Source of the DNA: Chitinivibrionales bacterium
GTDB taxonomy: Bacteria; Fibrobacterota; Chitinivibrionia; Chitinivibrionales; WJKA01
NCBI GenBank assembly: GCA_014728295.1
Contig: WJLW01000112.1
Coordinates: 1-64,000 of the forward strand
DNA: 64,000 nt
Direction: 5' to 3'
Position 1 is the stretch's first letter, and each line of letters opens with the position of its first letter. Both the position numbers and the translations under genes were made by a program. Below, piece by piece: positions 12,807-26,138 of this stretch. Under the pieces are notes generated by a model. That model saw nothing but the letters and a program-made list of their open reading frames with translations. It made no database searches and was not told where the DNA came from.

Positions 12807-15800
12807 ATGAATTCTTTTCTGCTCAAAGCCGTGATTACCGGAATTGTTCTGTTCAGCAACGGGATAAATGCACAGGATTCGATTTGTACGTATTTGTGGA
12901 ACGCTTGTGACGTTGATACCTGCATCAACAAATCCAACATAATTCAAGAATCCGGTAGCGGCGTGCCGATCAAGGTGCCGCAGAATGCGACGAAGATTGC
13001 AAAAGACGGATTGAATTTATGCCTGGATGTGATTGAACTGGATCAGCCGCTGGATGTGGTTTTCGTTGTCGATTTGAGCGGGAGTATGACGCCGAACAGG
13101 GCCACGCAAAGTGGAGTATTGTGCAGTGGCAATAGTAATACGACCAGCTCGAATTTTACTGTTGATCCTTATCAATACAGTACGCTGGAAGTGCCGATTA
13201 CCACAAGCAATTGTGATTGGGCGGGAGATCCGTATGGGCAGCGCGCGATTGCACTGCGGGCAGGTATCGACCGTTTCTATCAATCCGGAGCCGCGACGCA
13301 ATCGACTGCCGGCTATATTGGATTTAACAGCAATGATAATAACGGATTGCCGCCGGGTCATCAATTTCAGCCGGTGAAACTGACATCTGCCAACAGAGCG
13401 CATTTTGATGTTGCGGTCGATACGCTTGAGAGATATGTCAGAAATCGCGGCGGTGGCGGCACGTGGATGCTTGAGGCGCTCGAGCAGGCCAAGTCGTGGT
13501 TTGATGATAACAGCCTGACGCCGAACAACCGACAGGCCATCATTTTTATTTCGGACGGTGAAGCAACCGGGGGGCATGGGCCCGATCCGATGTTTAACGA
13601 GCTGCGCAATGATTCAATCCCGGTCTACGGCATTTTTCTGGGCATACCGGAAACGAACAACGACCTGCGTAATCTTTCACAGTCTACCAATGGCGAATTT
13701 GCCTTCATTTCACCCGATAGTACTCAGAAACTGTCCGCACTGGTGGATGATATCATCGGCAATATCAGCAAAGGCTTTGTTGCGCGCACCATTTCTGCCA
13801 AAAACACCACCACCGGTCAATCACCGGCGCAAAGTGTTGACATTACACCCTCCGCCTCGGGTGAAATATTCAACGTTGTGCTCGACAGTACCATAGCCCT
13901 GCAACCCGGCCAAAACAGAATAACCATCGCCGCAACCTTTCGTTCGCCGTTGGGGCCGGGTGATACGACCTTTCAATTCAGCTTCATCATAGACGCAACG
14001 GGATCTTCGCAGCAGTGCGACAGCCTGGTGAGTTGCGTTCCGGCAAGTAAGCTCGAGATACTCAACCGCAGTGGTCTTGCCGTCGACTCACTGACCCAGA
14101 ACGAAAACCGCTATATGGTGCGTTTGACTACCTACGATACTTCGCTTGTCGTAGCTTATGTTGATGTAACCACCGCACAGAAAGGCGACAGTGAAACAAA
14201 CTTGCAATTGTCAACCCGGCGTTTTGCCACGGACAATTCCGGCAACGTCTATGCCGTCCTGGAAGGCGTCTTTTTCTTCAGCGCCTCAAATACCGGGAGT
14301 GCAACACCGGATAATTTCACTACCGAATCGAACTTGACGGATGTGATTACCGCCGTCTGGACGCATCCGCGTGATTCCCGCGACGATGCGACGGCCGCGA
14401 TGGATGTTAAAAGTCTCCCCAACAGCATCGAAATCTATGACGGCACCGGCGATCCGTCCGGTGTTGCGAAATATGCCGATTATCCGTCGGTGGTAACGGC
14501 CAAAGCGGGGGAGAATTTGCCGCTTGTCGCAAAGGTTTTTGCCGATCAGACCTGGTTCGGCTCTTACGAGAATGCTCCTCTCAATGAGAACATCGATTGG
14601 CGCTTTATCGATGTGGCAACGGGCAATGTCAATGATGATGCAATCGGTGATTTGACTGCAACGTCCGGGCATGATATCAGTTTCTACCCCAAACGGGCGC
14701 GGGAGTCGGTGGATATTGTGGTGACATTGACCAGTGGCGGTGTTTCCGAATTGCATGATACGATCCGCGTTGATATCATTCCGGGCGATCCGCACCATCT
14801 GATGATCGAGGCAACCTCCGACAGCTCGCGTATCAATCTGTACGATGACGATCCGTTGGCGCTCGTGGAAATCGATCCGAACTCGACAAGCCAGACCGTC
14901 TATGCCGTGCTGCGTGACAAGGAAGGCAATTTCATCAGCGCCTCGAATCCCAACGATTGGGGAAGCACGGCAGCGAGTGTGGCGACGGTGGCTGCCGGCA
15001 ACCAGACCATCGGCGAAGGCACGATCAGCAAGGGCGTGGACGACAGCGGCTCAACGCAGGTGTGGGCGCAGAACCAGACCCTCGATTTTACCGATACCGT
15101 TGATGTAGTCGTCAGACTGTATACAATCGATTCACTGCGTATCGTTGCCAATCCTTCGTCAACGTCGGAAATGAACAGCTTGACAGTAACCACCAATGAC
15201 GATACGACGATCTATGTGCAGGGCAAGCGATCGGATAACGGGCAGTGGATTACCGTGGTGGCGGATTGGAGCCTCAATCCCGTCGTCTCGACCGATCCGC
15301 CTCCCGGCCGCGGCAATTCGTGGAAATTTTCGCCTAACGATACCGGAGGCGGGCATATTGTTGTGTCACGCACCGGCGCAGCATCCGATTCGATGCCGTT
15401 TACCTTTAATCCCGGTTTCCCGACCCAGGTTGACATGCGCATCATTACGCCCGGTCTCGACAGCATTTATGCCGGCGATACGATTACGGCGGTGGTGACG
15501 ATCCGCAATAAAAACGGCGTCATGCCGGGGCAGTATTGCTATCCCGATCAGACGAATCAGCAGGCAATTTATCAGGAAGTGCTGGGGCAGGGAGTGGCGA
15601 ATAAAAGACCGCTTGCCATTGTCAACGGACAGACGAAAGATCTCAACAGACACTCATCCGAAACCATTAAGCACGATCAATGCTTTACCAATGGTGTCGA
15701 TACCGTCCAATTCGTGCTGTACTATGCGTCCCCAAACGACAATACGCTTAATCGCCTGCATGTGCGACTGCCTAACGACAACAGTGCCACGCTGGAAGCT

Positions 15801-17282
15801 TCGACGGCGCAGTTCAAGGTGCTTCCGGGCGAAGCCGACTCGATTGTGCTGGTTGACGCCGGCGGCAATCCGCCTTCGGGTACCATCATCATGCCGCCTT
15901 CACCGGATGCGCTGCTCAGCTCGGAGTTGTTTGACAGATACGGCAATCCGGTTACCTGTCAAACCGGGCTGACTATCTGGCAGGCAACTGGTAGCCTGCC
16001 GGCCGTATTCGACAGTACCACCTGCGAGATTTTTTACCGCAAACCGGCGAATCTGACCGATACGCTCACCGGCGATCTGGTTGTAAAAATCGAGGCCCGA
16101 CCGAACAGACGTGACAGTGTTGCGGTGCAGCTTATACCACCGCAGGCACAAATTCTTTCGATGGTGACCCGGGATATCTCCGGCAACGGCTACCTGGATC
16201 GCATTGAAGTGACCTACGATAAAGCCGTGAGCCTGGCGGATGACTACAAGCCCGCAGACAACATCGCCATCACCGCAAAACCGCTTGGCAGAACAAGTTA
16301 CGATTTTGTGGCCGACAGTGTAAGCCTTTCTGTGCAGAATAGGAAACTGACCATCTACCTGCAGGAGAATAAAACGGAAAAGCCTCAGACGGACTGGTTG
16401 CCCGAGTTGAGCATTACCGGTATTATCGGTGCCGGCGACGGGGGCGGGCGTGCTCGGGACGGCGCCGGACCGGTTATCTGGTCGGCGGTGGCGGTGAAGC
16501 GCACGGCAACCGGTCCCGACGAACGCGTGTATTACGAAATAACGGCAACCATATCCGAAAAACTGGAGGAGCGCCTCAGCAGCCGGCACGAACCGAAACT
16601 CGTGTACTACCTCTACCGCAAAGACGGGGATGGCTGGGATACCTTGACGAACTACCTTGACGGCGACGATGTCATTTTCCTCAGCTCGAATGATGACCAG
16701 ATTGCGCGTTTTCAGATTGACAATGGAAATGAAGTCACGCCCAACGAATGGATAAATTTCCGAACCGATGTATCGCCGATGCATGTCAAAGACCGGGTCA
16801 ATCTGCCGCCGAATGACAACAACCACAAAGTGCGCATCGTTGTGGTGATTCCCGAATCCATTGCCGAAGCCGGACCCAGCCCGTTTGCCCCGACCAGCCG
16901 CTTTCATGAAATCGAACTCAGCTCGCTGCCGCCGCTTGAGGCCGCCAGACGGGCACGTGATTTCAACGGGACGGCCCTGGTTGTGCGACTCGATTCGCTC
17001 GATGCTCCCCCCTCAACCGAAAAGATTACCGGGCGGATGCGGGTATTTGACATTGCCGGCAATATCGTAGCCCAACGCCATACCGATGACGATCTGTTAC
17101 TGGATGAATTCAAAAACAAAGAAACCAGTGTCGTGCAACTGGGCTTTTACTGGAACGGCCTCAACGACAGCAAGATGAAGGCTGCGCCGGGAATCTACCT
17201 GATCACCCTCGATCTGGATATCGACAAGGGCAGCGACAACAAGCTCGTTTCTTTTAGAAAAGAGGTCGGCGTCATGCGATAA
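12807..17282 (+). CDS. Giant secreted protein with von Willebrand factor A domain
   Basis: A 1491-residue exported protein. Signal peptide about residues 1-22, ending NGINA before QDS. A VWA domain follows with the metal-binding DLSGSM near residue 89, then IIFISDGEATGG later in the domain. The middle is a chain of Ig-like or invasin-like beta sandwiches rich in Asp, Thr and Ser. A conserved block (ITRDISGNGYLDRIEVTYDK-like, near 1120) precedes a FlgD-type C-terminal Ig domain (MRVFDIAGNIVAQ, FYWNGLNDSKMKAAPGIYL) and the end RKEVGVMR. From about residue 800 it is clearly paralogous to the next gene (shared VPGQYCYPD / VPGTYCYYPD, PGEADSIVL / PGDVDSIVL). GGGG lies before the ATG. Likely a surface or matrix adhesin; substrate unknown. 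Confidence 0.85.
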   Translation: MNSFLLKAVITGIVLFSNGINAQDSICTYLWNACDVDTCINKSNIIQESGSGVPIKVPQNATKIAKDGLNLCLDVIELDQPLDVVFVVDLSGSMTPNRATQSGVLCSGNSNTTSSNFTVDPYQYSTLEVPITTSNCDWAGDPYGQRAIALRAGIDRFYQSGAATQSTAGYIGFNSNDNNGLPPGHQFQPVKLTSANRAHFDVAVDTLERYVRNRGGGGTWMLEALEQAKSWFDDNSLTPNNRQAIIFISDGEATGGHGPDPMFNELRNDSIPVYGIFLGIPETNNDLRNLSQSTNGEFAFISPDSTQKLSALVDDIIGNISKGFVARTISAKNTTTGQSPAQSVDITPSASGEIFNVVLDSTIALQPGQNRITIAATFRSPLGPGDTTFQFSFIIDATGSSQQCDSLVSCVPASKLEILNRSGLAVDSLTQNENRYMVRLTTYDTSLVVAYVDVTTAQKGDSETNLQLSTRRFATDNSGNVYAVLEGVFFFSASNTGSATPDNFTTESNLTDVITAVWTHPRDSRDDATAAMDVKSLPNSIEIYDGTGDPSGVAKYADYPSVVTAKAGENLPLVAKVFADQTWFGSYENAPLNENIDWRFIDVATGNVNDDAIGDLTATSGHDISFYPKRARESVDIVVTLTSGGVSELHDTIRVDIIPGDPHHLMIEATSDSSRINLYDDDPLALVEIDPNSTSQTVYAVLRDKEGNFISASNPNDWGSTAASVATVAAGNQTIGEGTISKGVDDSGSTQVWAQNQTLDFTDTVDVVVRLYTIDSLRIVANPSSTSEMNSLTVTTNDDTTIYVQGKRSDNGQWITVVADWSLNPVVSTDPPPGRGNSWKFSPNDTGGGHIVVSRTGAASDSMPFTFNPGFPTQVDMRIITPGLDSIYAGDTITAVVTIRNKNGVMPGQYCYPDQTNQQAIYQEVLGQGVANKRPLAIVNGQTKDLNRHSSETIKHDQCFTNGVDTVQFVLYYASPNDNTLNRLHVRLPNDNSATLEASTAQFKVLPGEADSIVLVDAGGNPPSGTIIMPPSPDALLSSELFDRYGNPVTCQTGLTIWQATGSLPAVFDSTTCEIFYRKPANLTDTLTGDLVVKIEARPNRRDSVAVQLIPPQAQILSMVTRDISGNGYLDRIEVTYDKAVSLADDYKPADNIAITAKPLGRTSYDFVADSVSLSVQNRKLTIYLQENKTEKPQTDWLPELSITGIIGAGDGGGRARDGAGPVIWSAVAVKRTATGPDERVYYEITATISEKLEERLSSRHEPKLVYYLYRKDGDGWDTLTNYLDGDDVIFLSSNDDQIARFQIDNGNEVTPNEWINFRTDVSPMHVKDRVNLPPNDNNHKVRIVVVIPESIAEAGPSPFAPTSRFHEIELSSLPPLEAARRARDFNGTALVVRLDSLDAPPSTEKITGRMRVFDIAGNIVAQRHTDDDLLLDEFKNKETSVVQLGFYWNGLNDSKMKAAPGIYLITLDLDIDKGSDNKLVSFRKEVGVMR

Positions 17283-17506
17283 TGCGCCTGAATGGATCAA
17301 CCCGGATACGAGCATGTTAAACTGTTCTGCGCGTTTCAGCGACTATCAATTAAGAGTTGATGCAGATTACTGCTTCCTGCCGAGAACAAAGACGCGCAGA
17401 TTGTTTGAAGGTGCTGAGACTGAATATTTATTTTTTTGCTATAGACTAATCCTGAGTTAATGTTCGCAATTAAAAGGGTGCCAAACATCTAGAGAGGGGT
17501 CGACAG

Positions 17507-20500
17507 ATGACAGGGACTGCCCGCTATTGTAATTTATGCGCTTTGCTTAGCGCTGTTGCCGCACTGCTCACGGCCGTCAGCGCACAGGATTTGCCCGATA
17601 CGTTGTGGGTGAAGGCTATTTATTATGATTTTCATGCGGATGGGACCGGAGGCAGTGGTTCGAATCCGGAGTTTAATGTCGGTCATTCAGGGGCGGGTGT
17701 TATCCGCAACATGGTACAAAACAGCGTCCTGGAGTATGAAACAACAAATGCCGGCTACTTTACTTACCCCAAATTCAGTTTTGATTCGATTGCCAAGCCG
17801 GTGCTGGGCTCCAATCCATTTAAAAATTGCGAAATCAGCCGGTGGTATCGTTCCTGGGAGCCGGTCACCCGTATTCCCGATTACGGAAATACATTCGGCT
17901 GTTCGGACTATCGAACGGTGGGCTATGATACTGCCTTTAAAAATATAGTGATCAAGGATTCGCTGCCATTCACGATTTTTAATCAACAAAACGGGACATA
18001 TCGCTACGAGCGTACCGGGCATTATACCGAAAGCGGCGAGGCCGGCGGTTTCTTCCCGATCGACGATAAAGGTTTTGGAAGCGATCTTCAGGGCCAATTG
18101 CACAATTATTCGTTTACTATGGAGCTGCATTTCAAGTTTACCTACCAGCCCGGATTAGAGTTTGATTTTCTGGGTGATGATGATCTGTGGGTCTATATTG
18201 ATGGAGAACTTGCTCTCGACCTGGGCGGGGTGCATAACAGCGCTCCGGGCAGTATCGATCTTGACAATCTTGGTTTAATCGACGGACAGGAATACGTGCT
18301 TGACCTCTTCTATGCCGAACGCAACCAGAATAATTCGCGCATCCGTATCACCACCAACATCTTCACCCCCGAACCCGAGAACCTCGTTTTGCAAACCGGC
18401 ACCGATACCATCTCCGCCGGTGATACTACTTCCATTATCGCCAAGATAATCACCAACAGCGGGGATACCATTCCGCCCGATTCATCGATATACGATTTGG
18501 TTTCCTGGGATATCCCGTCAATGAGCATGCAGCCCAGACCGGGTGATACGATCTGGTTTGATGACGGACATTATACCGTTTTCAGCGGCACACAGGCCTT
18601 TCGCAATGTGAAAATAATCGCCGGTTTTACCGATCAGAATGATGCGTCCAATGTTTTGTTCGATACCGCATCTGTCTACATCAAACCGGGGGCGGATTAC
18701 CAGGCGGTGATCGAGCGATCTTCGCGTACGCAACTTTCGGCCGATGATGTACGCCCTAACACCTACGCAGATTCGGTGCTGGCATCTCCGCTCAGTATTA
18801 TTTCGATGGACTCTGCGCAAAATGACGTATACGTCTATGGCGTCGTGCGCGACAGCTCGGGCAATTACAAACGCCTGCTGACCAACGGTGAGTGGAACAG
18901 CCTCGATCCGAACATCTTCACGGTTGCGATGCCGGGCAGTGGTAAGTGGGAAGCGCAGGTGACGCGGGTTACCAAAGGAGCCGACACCCTGGAAGCTTTG
19001 GAGCCGGGGCTGGTCGCCGATTCGGTTGAAATTGTCCTGAGTGCGGGGGTGCTGGTCGGCTTGCGCGTTATTGATTCGATTACCGGCCAGGTTGTCGATA
19101 CGATCAGCATCACAACGGATGATGTCGTCAATCTGCTGGCGGAGGGCAAGTGGTCGGACAACCTGGCTAGCTGGGTTACGCAACCGGCGTCCTGGAACAT
19201 GGACCCCGACACCCTGCGATCCGCCAACCAGATTCCAACCGGCGATCGTGCCACCTGGGTGTACAGTCCGATCAATCCGGGCCGGGCAACGCTCACCGTA
19301 TCATCCGGCAATCAAAGCGTCGACATTCCGGTGATCGTCACGCCGGCGCCGCCTTCCGGGGTTAGTCTAGACCTGCTTACTTCGAACCCGACCGCCGGCG
19401 TGCCGTTTCAGGCCGTGGTAACCATCACCAATTCCGACGGGCTGGTGCCCGGGACGTATTGTTACTATCCCGACTCACAGGCTCTTTACTGGGACATCCT
19501 GGGTAACGGCAATGCGAAAAAAGACCCCACGGTGCAGACCGGGCAGGATTCGACGAACCTGAATGTCCGCTCGAACAAGAACCGCGGCGTAACGCAATGC
19601 TTCGAAAACGGTGTTGACACGGTTGCGTTTGTACTCTACAACGCACCGCTTCCGCCCGACAATCAGCATCAGCTCTGGGTGCAGCTCGACGGAGCTCCGC
19701 CCCAGCCCATTACCGCAAAAACGCCGAAATTCATCCTGCAGCCCGGCGACGTCGACAGCATCGTACTCGAATATCCCGGCGGCGCGATTGTGCCCGATTC
19801 TGTCGCGCTGAATGCACCGGATGATGACTTGTTTATTCAGGCGATCGGGTATGATCAGTTTGGTAATCGCATCGGACCGATTGTCGGCGTCTGGAATCCG
19901 GGGGGATCACTGCATCCGATTGATGACGATACGAGCCAGGTGCTCTACTACTCCACGCAGGAAATTAAGCTGGACGAAAAGGGATGTGTTGTCGTTACCT
20001 CGCGTGATAAGCCGGGTGCAACGCCCGACAGGGTATGCCTCACGATAACCGCTCCCAAGGCCACGATTTCGACCGCTGCTACACGCGACTCCAGCGGCAA
20101 CGGCTATCTTGACATTATCAAGGTAACTTTTGACAAGGAAGTAACGATCGGGACCGGTTATTCCCTTGACAATATAAATTTGTTTCATACCTACGATCCC
20201 AATCCGCGCGACAGCGATCCGGGCACGACGTATTCGTTTGAGGTAACCGATATCCAGGCCCTCAACGGCACCGATACGGATACGCTTTTTTACCTTGCGG
20301 TCAAGGAGGTCAATACCGGAAAAATACCACAGACCGATTGGGAACCGACAATTCAATTCAAGAACAATGCAGCCATATCCAACAATGAATTTCAGGTTGG
20401 GGACGGCGCCGGCCCGGTCGTCTGGGATGTCTTTTTTGACAAACGCAAGGAGAACAAGATCGTTACGGTCACCTTCAGCGAGCCGCTGGAAAACGTTCCG

Positions 20501-21268
20501 GGACCCAGCATGGCGCGGCCCGAACTGGTGCTGAATGTCTGGTACGACTCGACGGAATCGGTGGATACCATGTTCAGTGAAGTTGAATTTTTCCGTACTT
20601 CTACAGAAAATAATAAAGCTTATTTCGAGCTTGACGAAAAGCATCTGCTGACGAATCGCCATTTCATCAGCATCAACATGTCCGGTGAGGTTTACCTTGT
20701 TGACCGCGACAAATTGAATCCGCCGGTGGTCGACAACCAGCGCGTGCGTGTTGATGTCAAGGATATTGCGGCAGTTCAGGCGGCGCCCAATCCCTTTCCG
20801 CCCGGCAATCCCAATATGTTGCTCCCCGGCGACGATCAGCGCGGCTTTGCATTTCATGATCGTGCCACCCGCAAGGAGGCATTCGAGCGTACGATCGGCC
20901 GGGCCGGCGGCGGAATGCTGCTGAAAATAGATCTTCCGCTGCCATCGGTCTGCAAAACGCCGGTAGAGGGAGATATTGTGCTCGAAGGACGCGGTGTTGT
21001 GTTTGATATCGTAGGCAATAAAGTAAAAGAAGTGACGTATGAAAACCTGTTCCCAGAAGAGTATTTCCGGGATTACGAGGGCGGCATCAAAAAAGACATT
21101 GCCATCTACTGGGATGGAACCAACAATGGCGGACTGGCGGTATCGCCCGGCGCCTATATCATGTATATCGATCTAAAGCTGAAAGCTGACGTCGGCTGCG
21201 AGGGTGGCCCCGTGGAACAGCACATCTGGTCGCGGAAAGATCCCGTCAAGCTGGGAGTGCGCCGGTAA
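17507..21268 (+). CDS. Giant secreted protein with fibro-slime domain
   Basis: A 1253-residue exported protein with signal peptide ending TAVSA before QDL. Residues about 30-290 form a fibro-slime (PA14-related) domain: the start has LWVKAIYYDFHADG, and residues about 220-243 carry FLGDDDLWVYIDGELALDLG, the family hallmark. This domain is known from Fibrobacter surface proteins and slime-mould proteins and is thought to bind carbohydrate. Ig-like beta sandwiches follow, then the same C-terminal scaffold as the preceding gene (TRDSSGNGYLDIIKVTFDK; FDIVGNKVKEV; YWDGTNNGGLAVSPGAYIM) and the end VKLGVRR. AGAGAGGGG is a strong ribosome-binding site. The 224 bases before it show no clear terminator or promoter. 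Probably cell-surface attachment to polysaccharide, by inference. Confidence 0.85.
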   Translation: MTGTARYCNLCALLSAVAALLTAVSAQDLPDTLWVKAIYYDFHADGTGGSGSNPEFNVGHSGAGVIRNMVQNSVLEYETTNAGYFTYPKFSFDSIAKPVLGSNPFKNCEISRWYRSWEPVTRIPDYGNTFGCSDYRTVGYDTAFKNIVIKDSLPFTIFNQQNGTYRYERTGHYTESGEAGGFFPIDDKGFGSDLQGQLHNYSFTMELHFKFTYQPGLEFDFLGDDDLWVYIDGELALDLGGVHNSAPGSIDLDNLGLIDGQEYVLDLFYAERNQNNSRIRITTNIFTPEPENLVLQTGTDTISAGDTTSIIAKIITNSGDTIPPDSSIYDLVSWDIPSMSMQPRPGDTIWFDDGHYTVFSGTQAFRNVKIIAGFTDQNDASNVLFDTASVYIKPGADYQAVIERSSRTQLSADDVRPNTYADSVLASPLSIISMDSAQNDVYVYGVVRDSSGNYKRLLTNGEWNSLDPNIFTVAMPGSGKWEAQVTRVTKGADTLEALEPGLVADSVEIVLSAGVLVGLRVIDSITGQVVDTISITTDDVVNLLAEGKWSDNLASWVTQPASWNMDPDTLRSANQIPTGDRATWVYSPINPGRATLTVSSGNQSVDIPVIVTPAPPSGVSLDLLTSNPTAGVPFQAVVTITNSDGLVPGTYCYYPDSQALYWDILGNGNAKKDPTVQTGQDSTNLNVRSNKNRGVTQCFENGVDTVAFVLYNAPLPPDNQHQLWVQLDGAPPQPITAKTPKFILQPGDVDSIVLEYPGGAIVPDSVALNAPDDDLFIQAIGYDQFGNRIGPIVGVWNPGGSLHPIDDDTSQVLYYSTQEIKLDEKGCVVVTSRDKPGATPDRVCLTITAPKATISTAATRDSSGNGYLDIIKVTFDKEVTIGTGYSLDNINLFHTYDPNPRDSDPGTTYSFEVTDIQALNGTDTDTLFYLAVKEVNTGKIPQTDWEPTIQFKNNAAISNNEFQVGDGAGPVVWDVFFDKRKENKIVTVTFSEPLENVPGPSMARPELVLNVWYDSTESVDTMFSEVEFFRTSTENNKAYFELDEKHLLTNRHFISINMSGEVYLVDRDKLNPPVVDNQRVRVDVKDIAAVQAAPNPFPPGNPNMLLPGDDQRGFAFHDRATRKEAFERTIGRAGGGMLLKIDLPLPSVCKTPVEGDIVLEGRGVVFDIVGNKVKEVTYENLFPEEYFRDYEGGIKKDIAIYWDGTNNGGLAVSPGAYIMYIDLKLKADVGCEGGPVEQHIWSRKDPVKLGVRR

Positions 21269-21279
21269 GGGGAGTGCGG

Positions 21280-22068
21280 TTACGGGCGATCCGGCGCAGT
21301 AATCGGCGCTGCCTCAAGCTCCTCGGGCAGGTGCTGATGGCGCGGGCTGTGATGATCGCACAGTGTGCCGTGCATGTGCTCCAAATGGGCATACTTTCTG
21401 GCCCAGATTTCCGGGTAGAACGCCTTGACACATTCCGGACAGAGCGTATGGCTGAAATCGGCAAAGCTGTGCCTGCTGATATAATCTTCGATGTTATTCC
21501 AGTGATCCTGATCATCGCGAATCTTTTTGCAGTGCGCGCAGATCGGCAGAAATCCCCGTAACGTTTCTACTTCGTCAAGCGCTTTACGCAACTGGGCAAT
21601 CAGGTTGGTACGGTCCTCCTCGGCCTGCTTGCGGGCGGTTACATCCTGGGAGGTGATGATCGCGCCGTCGGGAAAAGGGCTCAGGGTGACATTGAGCGTT
21701 TTCCTGCCGTATTTCAACTCCGAAAACAGCTTTGTTTTCTGTTCCCTGATGCAGCCCATGAGTTCACCGTGCATATCGGCTTCGTGCCGGGAAGCATAGT
21801 CGCGGTACATAACATCACCGATCTCGGGCAGACGATCTCCGGATTTGAGCTTTGCTTTATTGGAGCGAATAACGCGTCCTTCCCGGTCGACGACAACCGT
21901 AAATACCGGATTATAGCTGAACAGGGCAAAGTTGAAAGCTTCTTTGTGGCGGAGTTGCTTCTCTACAGCTTTGTGTTGTTCTTCAAGGCGCTCCAGGTGT
22001 GCGACTTTTTCCCGCATATTTGCTAATTCCGCCAGTAGCTCCGTTCTGCTTTTTTCAGTTTCGTGCAT
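21280..22068 (-). CDS. PAS-domain protein with C-terminal Cys-rich motif, no kinase domain
   Basis: A 262-residue soluble protein. An N-terminal coiled coil (ELLAELANMREKVAHLERLE) leads to a PAS domain (FALFSYNPVFTVVVDREGRV to GAIITSQDVTARKQAEEDR). After a second helix the C-terminus has GFLPICAHCKKIRDD, then WNNIEDYISRHSFADFSHTL, then CPEC. This module (C-x2-C ... FSH-x-(L/I)-CPEC) is known at the end of many PAS and receiver signalling proteins and probably binds a metal or redox group. No histidine kinase, cyclase or HTH domain is present, so it must act on a partner. It ends 12 bases from the convergent fibro-slime gene. Confidence 0.75.
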   Translation of the reverse strand: MHETEKSRTELLAELANMREKVAHLERLEEQHKAVEKQLRHKEAFNFALFSYNPVFTVVVDREGRVIRSNKAKLKSGDRLPEIGDVMYRDYASRHEADMHGELMGCIREQKTKLFSELKYGRKTLNVTLSPFPDGAIITSQDVTARKQAEEDRTNLIAQLRKALDEVETLRGFLPICAHCKKIRDDQDHWNNIEDYISRHSFADFSHTLCPECVKAFYPEIWARKYAHLEHMHGTLCDHHSPRHQHLPEELEAAPITAPDRP

Positions 22069-22430
22069 ATGTGTTACCCCCTTCTCCGTCTGAGATGAGC
22101 CCGAAAAGTTGTCGCGGTAGTGCCGATGAAGTGAATCATTAATCTAATTTTAAGATTCACGGCAGGCCAAATCAAGTAAAAAATTGCATCTTTTTCTACC
22201 AATTGTTGTGCTTGCTTTTTACTGTTCTACCAGATGCCGCGCAAAAGATACGGTAATTCCGGCATCCTAAGTCGGGCAACTACAATATGTTGGAGCCCTG
22301 CTTGGAAGTAACCAATGAAGTGTGTTTTTGCGTTTTAATTCAGCGTTTGACATACTACATCTTGTGGTGTATAATTAAATTGTATGCGTTAACGAGTATG
22401 TGCAGTTGAGCAAAGATTGGAGAAGTTGCA
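22069..22430. other. Intergenic region with inverted repeat and consensus promoter
   Basis: Between the PAS gene and the Cys-rich mini-gene. GTGAATC (22131-22137) and GATTCAC (22154-22160) form a perfect 7-base inverted repeat with a 16-base AT-rich spacer; it could be an operator or the hairpin of a transcript from either side. A near-perfect sigma-70 promoter follows (22347-22375). Nothing else is recognisable in these 362 bases. Confidence 0.45.
22347..22375 (+). promoter_or_regulatory. Perfect consensus sigma-70 promoter
   Basis: TTGACA (22347-22352) and TATAAT (22370-22375) are both exact consensus boxes with the optimal 17-base spacer. The start codon of the Cys-rich mini-gene is 56 bases downstream. 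Promoters this strong are uncommon and usually drive abundant RNAs or are under a repressor. Confidence 0.8.
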
Positions 22431-22661
22431 ATGTTGCACCGCAAAATTTCCTGCTCCCGCTGCGCGGCGCGTTCGCATTGTTCCGCGCGCACCAAGCTAT
22501 ACATAAATTACTGCGGCTCACACTTCGCAAAGGCAAACCGGTTTATTCAGCCGGCAATTCGTGAATGTAAAGAAAGACGCGGTTTGGTGCTGCAGGGAAT
22601 AGTGCGCGGCACACCGTCGCCTGCTCCCCAAAGCGCACAAGTCAATAAAAGTGTCACCTGA
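22431..22661 (+). CDS. 76-residue Cys-rich protein of unknown function
   Basis: A small basic protein starting MLHRKISCSRCAARSHC and containing LYINYCGSHFAKANRF. Cysteines at about 8, 11, 17, 28 and 46 (C-x2-C-x5-C-x10-C) suggest a zinc or iron-sulfur site. TGGAGAAG lies eight bases before the ATG and a perfect promoter lies 56 bases upstream, so I think it is expressed. The last 25 residues (PSPAPQSAQVNKSVT) are low-complexity, and the stop codon falls inside a 20-base palindrome, so the C-terminus may have been set by an inserted repeat. I do not recognise the family. An alternative is that the promoter drives a structured RNA and the frame is incidental. Confidence 0.5.
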   Translation: MLHRKISCSRCAARSHCSARTKLYINYCGSHFAKANRFIQPAIRECKERRGLVLQGIVRGTPSPAPQSAQVNKSVT

Positions 22662-22667
22662 CACTTT
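22648..22667. repeat. 20-base perfect palindrome AAAGTGTCA-CC-TGACACTTT
   Basis: Arms AAAGTGTCA and TGACACTTT are exact reverse complements with CC between. It spans the stop codon of the mini-gene and lies just before the promoter-like boxes of the lytic transglycosylase gene. There is no T-run, so it is not a typical terminator. It could be an operator for the downstream promoter (its edge is 6 bases from the -35 box) or a dispersed palindromic repeat. Confidence 0.55.
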
Positions 22668-22672
22668 ACGGG

Positions 22673-22701
22673 TTGCCCGCACGGCACTTTCATGCTACAA
22701 T
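22673..22701 (+). promoter_or_regulatory. Candidate promoter of the lytic transglycosylase gene
   Basis: TTGCCC (22673-22678) and TACAAT (22696-22701) have a 17-base spacer. The leader to the ATG at 22816 would be about 108 bases. The -35 box almost touches the 20-base palindrome at 22648-22667, which could therefore regulate it. Confidence 0.4.
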
Positions 22702-22815
22702 GTATCGAAACGCCGGGCGCACTGCCGGGCCCGCCGAATGCGTTGAAAATGCAGGAGCTGAGAGCTATTTTAACCAGTTACTTCTTCAATCCACTTAGCC
22801 GGAAATGCCGACATA

Positions 22816-25071
22816 ATGAAATGCACCGATATCGTTCCGCTTCTGAGCGGCTTCTTGTTGCTGGGATGCGCCACGCAGAAACCGCTTACGACTATTGCGG
22901 ATATTGACGAAGCGACGCTGACCGGAGTCGACACCGTTATCATTACAGGTGGTATGGATTCCACCGCGACAGATTCGGTCGCGTTGATCACGCCGTTCGA
23001 GCGCATCGGTTTTCTGATCGGCCTGGCAAAGGAGTCGGTCAAGCAGAATAAATTTGACGAGGCGAATGCGCAGATGCGGGAAGCGGTCTGGATAATTGAA
23101 GAAAGTAAAGATACCTCGGCGCTTATCCGGCAGACCCAGGACAGTCTGTATAAGGAAATCGTAGCTTTTTATACCGATATCATGCCCGCGGAATTTCTTG
23201 ATTTAATGCCGGAGAACATCTCGGTGCAGGTATTCGAAATCCGTCTCTCACGCTCCCTGGACTCACTGAAACTATCTACCGACGACAGCGCCGCTCTGGC
23301 AACGATGCTGTGCCATAACAAATCCGAATATGATGTGCCGATGGTATTCAATGACCGGGTCTATCGGGCTTTGAATTTCTACAGTCGTGGACGTAAAGGT
23401 CCCGTGAGCAGGTGGCTGGTGCGGGCACATTATTATCTGCCTCTGTTTAGGCAGGTTTTTGCCGACTCCGGTTTGCCGCAAGATCTGGCGTACCTGCCGC
23501 TGATCGAAAGCGGCTTCAATCCCCGCGCCTACTCTCCCGCGCATGCTTCCGGCATCTGGCAGTTCATCTCTTCGACTGGCCGCAGGTATGGTTTGCGCAA
23601 AAGCTACTGGCTTGACGAGCGCAGAAGTCCCTTGCAGGCAACACGATCGGCGGCTTCGTATCTTAAAAAGCTGTACGGCGATTTTAGCGACTGGCACCTG
23701 GCGCTGGCTGCGTATAATTGCGGAGAAGGCGGCGTTGGGCGTGCAATCAGGCGGGCCGATACGGCCGACTACTGGCAATTGCGGTTGCCGCGTGAGACTA
23801 TGAACTATGTGCCGCAGTTTATTGCCGCACTGATCATTGCAAAAAATCCGCACTGTTTTGACTTCACGGTTGATACGGTCGAGCCATTTGATCTGGATAC
23901 GGTGTTAATACATGACTGTGTTGACATGGGCGAAATCGCACAGGCCCTGGACGTGCCGGCCGTCGAACTGCGCAAGCTGAATCCGCATATCCTGCGCTGG
24001 TGCACGCCGCCGGATCACAAAGATGTCGTAGTGTATCTGCCGGCCGGAAGCAAGGGACAATTTACGGAATTTTATGCCTCCCTGCCTCCCGAAAAAAAAG
24101 TAAAGTGGCTTCGCTATCGCATTTCCGCCGGCGACAACCTGGGCTCGATCTCGCGACGATTCCGGGTGCCGGTGCATGCCATAAAGTCGATGAATAATCT
24201 GAGATCCAGCCGCATTATCGCCGGAAAGCATCTTTTCGTTCCCGTGCCGGCCAATCGATCCGTTCCCCGGATTGGCAAAAGCGCGGCCCCTCCCCGCAGC
24301 CCCGGCCGGCGTGTCGTCGCTGAGCCCGAAGAAGCGCTGGTGTTCAAGGCCAAGGGGCTGAAGCCGTTGAAATACAAAGTCAGATCTGGCGATACGATGT
24401 ACGAATTGGCAAAACTGTTCAATACTTCCGTAGGTGATATCTGCCGCTGGAACAATATAAGCAGGGCGCGCTCGATCCGCGTCGGCCAGATGCTTACGCT
24501 ATATGTCACGCTGACGCCCAACCAGAAGGAGTTGCTGCCTCGCAAGCCGCGTCCGGCTCCTTCGCATTTGGTGAAGGCCTACTATAAAATCAGGCGCGGC
24601 GACAATCTCTACTCGATTGCCCGGCGTCTGAAAGTTTTGGTGGACGATCTTATCGTTTGGAACAACCTTGATGGGAGCCACCCGCTGATCCATCCCGGTC
24701 GGCAGCTCGTTTATCATCAGGACCCGTCGCTGGTGAGCCGCCAGGTTGACAAAATAGGCGCCAGTCGCAGCAGTCTGGTTGATCCGCGTGAAGACTTTGT
24801 GCGCTACCGGGTCAGGCGCGGCGATAATCTGTACCGCCTGGCCAAGCTTTTTGGATGCGAGGTGGGTACCATCAAAAGAATCAACAAGCTCAAAGGTTCC
24901 GCCATTATCCGGCCGGGTGACATCCTCTATATGCCCTCGCCAAAAAGCAGCGGCGTCAAAACCACACCCGCTCCCGATCCCGAAGCGCTTTACCGGGAGG
25001 ATACCGCACGGCAAACCATGCTCTCGGCTGCCTACGGCATACGGGTTTCGGCGCAGGGGGCGGTATTGTGA
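22816..25071 (+). CDS. MltD-like membrane-bound lytic transglycosylase with four LysM domains
   Basis: A 751-residue lipoprotein: signal MKCTDIVPLLSGFLLLGC, lipidated Cys at 18. An SLT (goose-lysozyme-like) domain occupies about 205-330, with the catalytic Glu at 231 in LPLIESGFNPRAYSP, then ASGIWQFISSTGRRYGL and HLALAAYNCGEGGV. It cuts the glycan strands of peptidoglycan. Four LysM repeats follow in the C-terminal half (YRISAGDNLGSISRRF, YKVRSGDTMYELAKLF, YKIRRGDNLYSIARRL, YRVRRGDNLYRLAKLF), which bind peptidoglycan; a degenerate fifth precedes them. E. coli MltD has two LysM, so this version is longer. The stop overlaps the SppA start by four bases (GTGA), so the two are co-expressed. Confidence 0.92.
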   Translation: MKCTDIVPLLSGFLLLGCATQKPLTTIADIDEATLTGVDTVIITGGMDSTATDSVALITPFERIGFLIGLAKESVKQNKFDEANAQMREAVWIIEESKDTSALIRQTQDSLYKEIVAFYTDIMPAEFLDLMPENISVQVFEIRLSRSLDSLKLSTDDSAALATMLCHNKSEYDVPMVFNDRVYRALNFYSRGRKGPVSRWLVRAHYYLPLFRQVFADSGLPQDLAYLPLIESGFNPRAYSPAHASGIWQFISSTGRRYGLRKSYWLDERRSPLQATRSAASYLKKLYGDFSDWHLALAAYNCGEGGVGRAIRRADTADYWQLRLPRETMNYVPQFIAALIIAKNPHCFDFTVDTVEPFDLDTVLIHDCVDMGEIAQALDVPAVELRKLNPHILRWCTPPDHKDVVVYLPAGSKGQFTEFYASLPPEKKVKWLRYRISAGDNLGSISRRFRVPVHAIKSMNNLRSSRIIAGKHLFVPVPANRSVPRIGKSAAPPRSPGRRVVAEPEEALVFKAKGLKPLKYKVRSGDTMYELAKLFNTSVGDICRWNNISRARSIRVGQMLTLYVTLTPNQKELLPRKPRPAPSHLVKAYYKIRRGDNLYSIARRLKVLVDDLIVWNNLDGSHPLIHPGRQLVYHQDPSLVSRQVDKIGASRSSLVDPREDFVRYRVRRGDNLYRLAKLFGCEVGTIKRINKLKGSAIIRPGDILYMPSPKSSGVKTTPAPDPEALYREDTARQTMLSAAYGIRVSAQGAVL

Positions 25072-25949
25072 AACGGTCTCACAAAATCATGATTGTAGCC
25101 GTCATTCTTACTCCGGTGGTTATCGGTCTGGTGGTAACCGTTCTGTCGCAGAACTCCGAGCGTGGTCCGCTTGGCGGTGCAAAAATCGGCCTGGTGCGGG
25201 TGCGCGATATTATTTACGAGTCTGATTCGTATGTCAAGCAGTTGAAAGAATACCGCGAAGACGAAAGCGTACTCGGCGTGATTATGCGCATCAACTCGCC
25301 CGGCGGCACGGTTGCCCCTGCGCAGGAGATTTTCGCCGAAGTGATGCGTTATCGTGCGGCTCAAAAACCCCTCATCGTGTCGATGGAAAACGTTGCTGCG
25401 TCGGGAGGGTATTACATCGCCGGCGGCGCGGATAAAATCTTTGCCAATCCGGGAACCCTTACCGGCAGCTTTGGCGTTATCCTGCGCTTTCCGTCCTATC
25501 ACAAGCTGATGGATAAAATCGGCTTTGATATGATTACCATCAAGGCCGGCAAATTCAAGGACATCGGTAACCCGCACCGGGAGATGACCGATGCCGAGAG
25601 GGCCACGCTCAGCACGCTGGTTGAGAATACGCACGATCAATTTATCAATGCGATCGTGACGGGACGCAACATGTCGCTCGATTCGGTAAGAAAATATGCC
25701 GACGGTCGGATTTTCACCGGCATGCAGGCAAAAGAGCTGGGCTTTGTCGATTCCCTCGGCGGATTTGAGACGGCTCTGGAGTACCTTAAAACAACGCTGG
25801 GGCTTACCGGCAAAGTAAAGCTTGCCGAGAAAAAAGAGAGAGAGCCGCTGCTGAAGCGGCTTTTAACCGGCGAGGCCCGGGGACTGCTGAATGTGGGCCG
25901 GGTGCTGGCGCCGCCGGCCGGCGCGTATTATCTCATGAGCGGATCGTGA
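25068..25949 (+). CDS. sppA: Signal peptide peptidase SppA, short form
   Basis: A 293-residue single-domain serine/lysine protease of the ClpP/crotonase-like S49 family. One N-terminal membrane helix (IMIVAVILTPVVIGLVVTVL) is followed by the core: MRINSPGGTV, the catalytic Ser in ENVAASGGYYIA, FANPGTLTGSFGV, and the catalytic Lys in the TIKAGKFKDIG region. It degrades leftover signal peptides in the membrane; with many secreted proteins nearby that fits. It is the short (half-size) form, as in Bacillus, unlike the doubled E. coli enzyme. Start is GTG 25068, overlapping the upstream gene by four bases. Confidence 0.9.
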   Translation: MKRSHKIMIVAVILTPVVIGLVVTVLSQNSERGPLGGAKIGLVRVRDIIYESDSYVKQLKEYREDESVLGVIMRINSPGGTVAPAQEIFAEVMRYRAAQKPLIVSMENVAASGGYYIAGGADKIFANPGTLTGSFGVILRFPSYHKLMDKIGFDMITIKAGKFKDIGNPHREMTDAERATLSTLVENTHDQFINAIVTGRNMSLDSVRKYADGRIFTGMQAKELGFVDSLGGFETALEYLKTTLGLTGKVKLAEKKEREPLLKRLLTGEARGLLNVGRVLAPPAGAYYLMSGS

Positions 25950-26138
25950 TACGTCCCAATTCATCATTATAGCTGTGTGTTTTTCGGGGCGCCGGTACAA
26001 TCAAGTAGATTTCATCAAAATTGCCATTTTTTGAGCTAAAATAGTGACTTTCGCATGTGCATAACTTATTATATAGGACATTGATCGTAACAAGAGTCAT
26101 CATTCTATTCACAATTTAAAGCTTCACAGGAGGAGCAT

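Follow-up and report, generated by a model that had tools for sequence, protein, structure and literature searches.

The one exact sigma-70 promoter in the 64,000-nucleotide stretch of DNA analysed here (the window) precedes a 76-codon frame at 22431..22661 on the forward strand which, judged by comparison with related genomes, is a real protein-coding gene of a previously unnamed family. Its product has five invariant cysteines (C8, C11, C17, C28 and C46) and an NYCG motif, and comparative evidence indicates that the promoter is part of a conserved unit with this five-cysteine gene. The account that we hold to be probable, short of confident, is that the gene encodes a small metal or Fe-S protein and has a strong promoter of its own, which a dimeric repressor controls through a MarR-/PadR-like operator; we infer the repressor, the metal and the cellular role. 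A single promoter-like string has thereby become a defined object, an unnamed protein family whose gene has a regulatory element specific to it, kept in several families of bacteria.

The promoter, with TTGACA and TATAAT separated by 17 bp, occupies 22347..22375 on the forward strand. TTGACA-N17-TATAAT occurs once in the window, with 0.02 occurrences expected from 100 shuffles, and the whole genome (5.29 Mb) contains 11 exact promoters with 16-18 bp spacers and no copy of the reversed pattern. The -10 hexamer and the ATG (22431) are 55 bases apart, and a ribosome-binding site, GGAGAAG (22419..22425, +), stands 5 bases before the ATG; similar purine-rich sites precede the starts of homologues, where the sigma-70 hexamers and their spacing of about 17 bp are also conserved. 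The sequence-only reading had reported an exact promoter followed by a short frame with a good ribosome-binding site and five cysteines, and it was right in all of these. Its claim of a promoter unmatched elsewhere in the window stands for exact matches and fails for near matches, with an 11/12 site at 25237-25209 (-) found in a scan of 21000-26000. This site, TTGACA-17-AATAAT, is antisense within an SppA-like gene.

Searches with the 76-residue query against 100 related genomes retrieved relatives at E values of 1e-6 to 1e-12, and a profile built from 22 relatives, run on 167 Fibrobacterota genomes, gave the family in 31. These comprise 30 of the 40 genomes that are the window's own, of its family or of its order, plus one from another family (G041); the remaining genomes had none. 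When the most conserved peptide was compared with a collection of 84,980 species, 26 stretches were returned and 20 confirmed, all titled as Fibrobacterota-type organisms (Chitinispirillaceae, Chitinispirillales, Chitinispirillia, Chitinivibrionales, Fibrobacteres/Fibrobacter sp., Fibrobacteria and one Candidatus Raymondbacteria), in a scan with one strict peptide that divergent relatives may escape. A profile search of 391 relatives reaching beyond the phylum gave 32 positive genomes, the sole addition (G256) being a chance match at the end of another gene, in a frame that contains a stop. Two stretches fitting the pattern turned up in viral contigs, neither of them a relative, and the family was absent from the plasmids searched. 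As far as these searches extend, the family is restricted to one branch of the Fibrobacterota.

The arrangement CxxC-x5-C-x10-C-x15-19-C plus NYC is kept in 35/35 distinct copies, a set from which one locus (L161) was dropped as the same place as another (L079), and NYCG is kept in 34 of them. Lys5 is invariant as well, and basic residues follow the last cysteine (ECRxRRG). Among 19 listed pairs with 56-82% identity, dN ranged from 0.09 to 0.39 and dS from 0.38 to saturation, which points to purifying selection on the gene in close pairs. The sequence-only reading had proposed weighing conservation of the frame against synonymous changes, and dN well below dS in close pairs is what that comparison yields; together with the homologues and the constant spacing, it bears out the Cys-rich protein that the reading had offered beside a small RNA. 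At the DNA level, the region 22300-22820 gave short, low-score matches in relatives and none that was convincing; therefore, conservation resides in the protein and the promoter.

The reading had also matched the protein to no known family, and databases agree: Pfam returned no family above its cut-off for the 76 residues, NCBIfam and PDB (by sequence) nothing credible, and Rfam no credible match. Literature searches on the operator core, on Fibrobacterota genera and on Rnf in the group found nothing on the gene, although an unnamed gene escapes a text search. Invariant cysteines in a CxxC and further spaced motifs are a hallmark of metal or Fe-S proteins and occur in all 35 copies; because both AlphaFold models have a mean pLDDT near 54 (53.9 and 53.6), it is the cysteine pattern alone that suggests that the cysteines hold a metal ion or an Fe-S cluster, hinting at zinc or Fe-S.

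The gene's surroundings are themselves conserved. Among the 35 distinct loci, 25 lie beside rnfB (at most 500 bases upstream, 12 loci) and/or a gene for an MltD-like protein (at most 400 bases downstream, 23 loci). In the window, the MltD-like lytic transglycosylase, with SLT and LysM domains, is encoded at 22816..25071 (+), followed by an SppA-like S49 peptidase at 25068..25949 (+). At most loci the downstream order is MltD-like, SppA-like, Hc1 and ABC transporter, and rnfCDGEAB lies directly upstream of the five-cysteine gene in three families (f2, f4 and f6), so that the ancestral order may have been rnf, five-cysteine gene, MltD, SppA. An rnfCDGEAB operon is also present in the cultured relative Chitinispirillum alkaliphilum, according to the part of the source consulted (PMC4814513). 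Across 60 genomes, rnfC was found in 37, namely 28 of the 31 with the family and nine where the family was not found, one of which (G009) has the gene running off its contig; in three family genomes no rnfC was found. Because most of the contrast comes from Fibrobacter-type families without both, the co-occurrence is weak, and the Rnf link is positional.

Several other features of the region were recorded. A PAS-type gene, below the Pfam cut-off, at 21280-22068 (-) encodes a Cys-containing tail (CAHCKK..CPEC) and is in the same place in another genome (G001) with 59% identity. A histone H1-like Hc1 protein of 56 aa (PF07432; 26139-26309, +) has a strongly conserved counterpart (69-89%) in this position in relatives. 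At 12807-21268 (+), two very long proteins of secreted appearance (1491 and 1253 aa) form one similarity cluster.

Conservation of the promoter proved to extend into its spacer. Upstream of the gene, a promoter scoring at least 10/12 with 17 bp spacing was found in 24 of 29 regions, a set that omits one copy with the motif NYCDS (L061, included in the wider 35-locus set as L157). In these 24 aligned promoters, the spacer carries 1.05 bits per column vs 0.21 after the -10; the column counts omit the five regions scoring below 10 at 17 bp, among them L038, which belongs to the L064 gene and has an 18-bp spacer. Spacer positions 9 (C), 11 (A), 16 (T) and 18 (G) are invariant in 24/24, and these letters form a dyad, CnA-N4-TnG (O1). 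The window's O1, CTACATCTTG (22355..22364), is an imperfect palindrome, yet it has all four invariant letters.

A second dyad, CAA-N4-TTG (O2), recurs about three helical turns upstream, for example CCACAACAGATTGGGT, and is followed by a T-rich tract that lies directly before the -35 at homologues. With at least 5 of 6 letters, O2 stands at an offset of 31 or 32 in 22 of 25 testable copies, 15 of them exact, vs 4/26 at the next-best offset; one copy (L076) falls outside the count as its 200-base stretch ended before the O2 position. The letters around the promoter and dyads have drifted and the elements themselves have not, although the counts come from related genomes that share ancestry and are not independent events.

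The element follows synteny closely. Promoter and spacer motif occur together in 25/25 copies with an rnfB and/or MltD-like neighbour and in one of the ten others (L065). When this copy is added to the syntenic ones for its promoter, giving 26 'type 1' copies, CnA-N4-TnG is present in 26/26 and in 0/9 of the rest; an exact 12/12 promoter with a 17-bp spacer is found in 7/26. In terms of MarR/PadR-type operators, O1 is thus a relaxed form of the dyad at all type 1 copies, and O2 the exact form at those 15. Six copies without promoter or synteny (L163, L081, L162, L158, L160 and L079) possibly form a separate subfamily; some such copies are a second copy in their genome (G001, G004, G041), and some are beside PAS/response-regulator genes.

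The window's own copy departs from this arrangement. It has no O2 at the usual 31-32 bp place, rnfC lies elsewhere in its genome (G000:C56), and a divergent PAS gene takes the upstream position; this loss of both the rnf neighbour and the canonical O2 counts against the repressor account. A sequence 72 bp from O1, CAATATGTTG (22283..22292), may be a displaced O2, about seven turns from O1; it is a single-genome observation and is called a candidate because a match of this kind has, by our own estimate, an approximately 2% chance of arising at random.

Genome-wide searches indicate that the element is specific to this gene. With one mismatch allowed, the promoter-plus-dyad pattern matched 22 places in 41 genomes, with a maximum of one per genome: 20 at the five-cysteine gene, one in G009 and one in G015, compared with one for the reversed control. 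In G009 only the first bases from the expected start (ATG CAA CAT G) are left before the contig ends; a ferredoxin-type frame stands upstream, and the contig also carries rnfC. The G015 place was taken as unrelated. A looser pattern gave 28 rows in the same number of genomes (two places appear double), of which many lay at the family gene and the others at scattered places, with one for the reversed control, and inspection by eye revealed no recurrent second target. The genome's ten other exact promoters have no tRNA at their loci and, by eye, precede unrelated genes. At one of them (L007; G000:C56:11339-11367, -), ACAACCTGTTG lies in the spacer before an AraC-like frame recognised by eye. L007 is possibly a second target of the same regulator in the window's genome; its dyad was not found conserved in 40 relatives with the looser pattern.

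These observations can be ordered into a regulatory scheme. This looks like a strong gene under a switch and not one that is always on, since its promoter carries two conserved palindromes resembling regulator-binding sites. A near-consensus promoter needs no activator, a dyad between the -35 and -10 is a classic repressor location, and cooperative binding would agree with another dyad lying on the same side of the helix. In this scheme, O1 and O2 would be occupied cooperatively, from one side of the DNA, by a regulator acting as a dimer, most probably a MarR- or PadR-type winged-helix repressor, and RNA polymerase would be kept off the promoter; when a signal arrives, a strong burst of the five-cysteine protein would follow. 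Our best guess for this signal is redox or metal state, because of the cysteine cluster and the ancestral place beside the Rnf electron-transfer operon. The winged-helix type is favoured because of the dyad placement and because the CAA-N4-TTG core is published for BadR and AphA. The conserved neighbours of the gene included no regulator gene, which counts against this account and would leave room for an activator. The sequence-only reading had expected a product either abundant or tightly repressed, and the dyads in and upstream of the spacer lend support to the repressed half. That evolution has kept the protein together with a two-operator promoter would mean that the cell needs to switch this protein.

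Other explanations deserve weighing against the repressor account. A constitutive, highly expressed small protein, with promoter strength or DNA shape and not a regulator as the reason why the spacer is conserved, would suit hexamers at or near consensus, the exact promoters in 7/26 and the T-rich tract just before the -35. We regard it as unlikely: sigma-70 contacts would not be expected to fix C, A, T and G at symmetrical spacer positions together with a similar dyad 31-32 bp upstream, and the ten other exact promoters do not share this spacer, save for the one-base-shifted ACAACCTGTTG. It is quite unlikely, in turn, that the five-cysteine protein is itself the sensor and binds DNA at its own twin operators. 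An element found at most once per genome, at the five-cysteine gene, is what a self-specific loop would be expected to show, the basic residues after the last cysteine and the invariant Lys5 could serve it, and the nine non-syntenic copies do without the element; yet the protein has no recognisable DNA-binding fold, the AlphaFold models being uninformative, and CAA-N4-TTG is already a site type of winged-helix regulators. The bolder version, a new small autorepressor invented in the Fibrobacterota beside the Rnf operon and sensing metal or redox state through its cysteine cluster while acting on its own twin dyads, is highly doubtful, although if true it would be a one-gene sensor circuit.

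The extent of the transcript bears on two further possibilities. With an MltD-like gene at most 400 bases downstream at 23/35 loci, the promoter could be that of the two downstream genes (MltD-like and SppA-like), preceded by the small frame as an upstream or leader cistron. Inspection by eye, however, revealed terminator hairpins with T runs after the five-cysteine gene at three loci (L064, L066 and L068) and a TATAAT-like sequence before the MltD-like gene at several, and three others (L073, L150 and L065) keep gene and promoter without an MltD neighbour, leaving the leader cistron very unlikely. Because of these hairpins and the TATAAT-like sequence, the gene most likely forms a transcription unit of its own with a short transcript. 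The window itself has a perfect inverted repeat of 9 bp, AAAGTGTCA-CC-TGACACTTT (22648..22667, +), which spans the stop codon with no T run after it and is possibly the transcript end. A strong promoter giving a short transcript would also suit a structured small RNA, the other product that the sequence-only reading had entertained. This option is barely credible and has been set aside: Rfam gave 0 matches at the gathering threshold and only a chance snoRNA (E 4.3) at a relaxed one, selection appears to act on the protein, and the leader is not conserved, information dropping after the -10 to a fifth of the spacer's. The repressor-gated protein thus remains the preferred account, and its short DNA and protein pieces make it directly testable in vitro. 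More broadly, an exact consensus promoter can point to a conserved small gene that lacks annotation in an uncultured phylum.

In its protein sequence and its control region, the system resembles several known ones and displays distinctions from each. Like the WhiB-like [4Fe-4S] regulators, which have three cysteines spaced CxxC-x5-C, the protein contains this spacing; the order of the other cysteines differs, and no WhiB family appears in the Pfam lists for 22 members at E values up to 1. Pfam DUF2769 (PF10967, unknown function) matched weakly in three of the 22 members, and the two matches viewed (E 0.021 and 0.022) span nearly the whole 57-position profile; membership is not claimed, as the better of the two scored 15.8 bits against a cut-off of 22.8, and the DUF2769 model did not find the gene in its own genome. 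For the operators, the part of the literature consulted offers closer parallels. BadR, a MarR-type repressor of Aromatoleum sp. CIB, has the operator CAAnnnnTTG (PMC9795900), identical in its core to the one here, although it concerns another gene in another phylum, whereas here two copies lie 31-32 bp apart, one in the -35/-10 spacer. AphA, of the PadR family, recognises ATGCAA-N4-TTGCAT and binds cooperatively at two adjacent sites at tfoX (PMC6855506); the flanks here differ, reading yACAAC..TTGT or CCACAAC..TTGGG, but both the CAA-N4-TTG core and the pairing of sites are shared.
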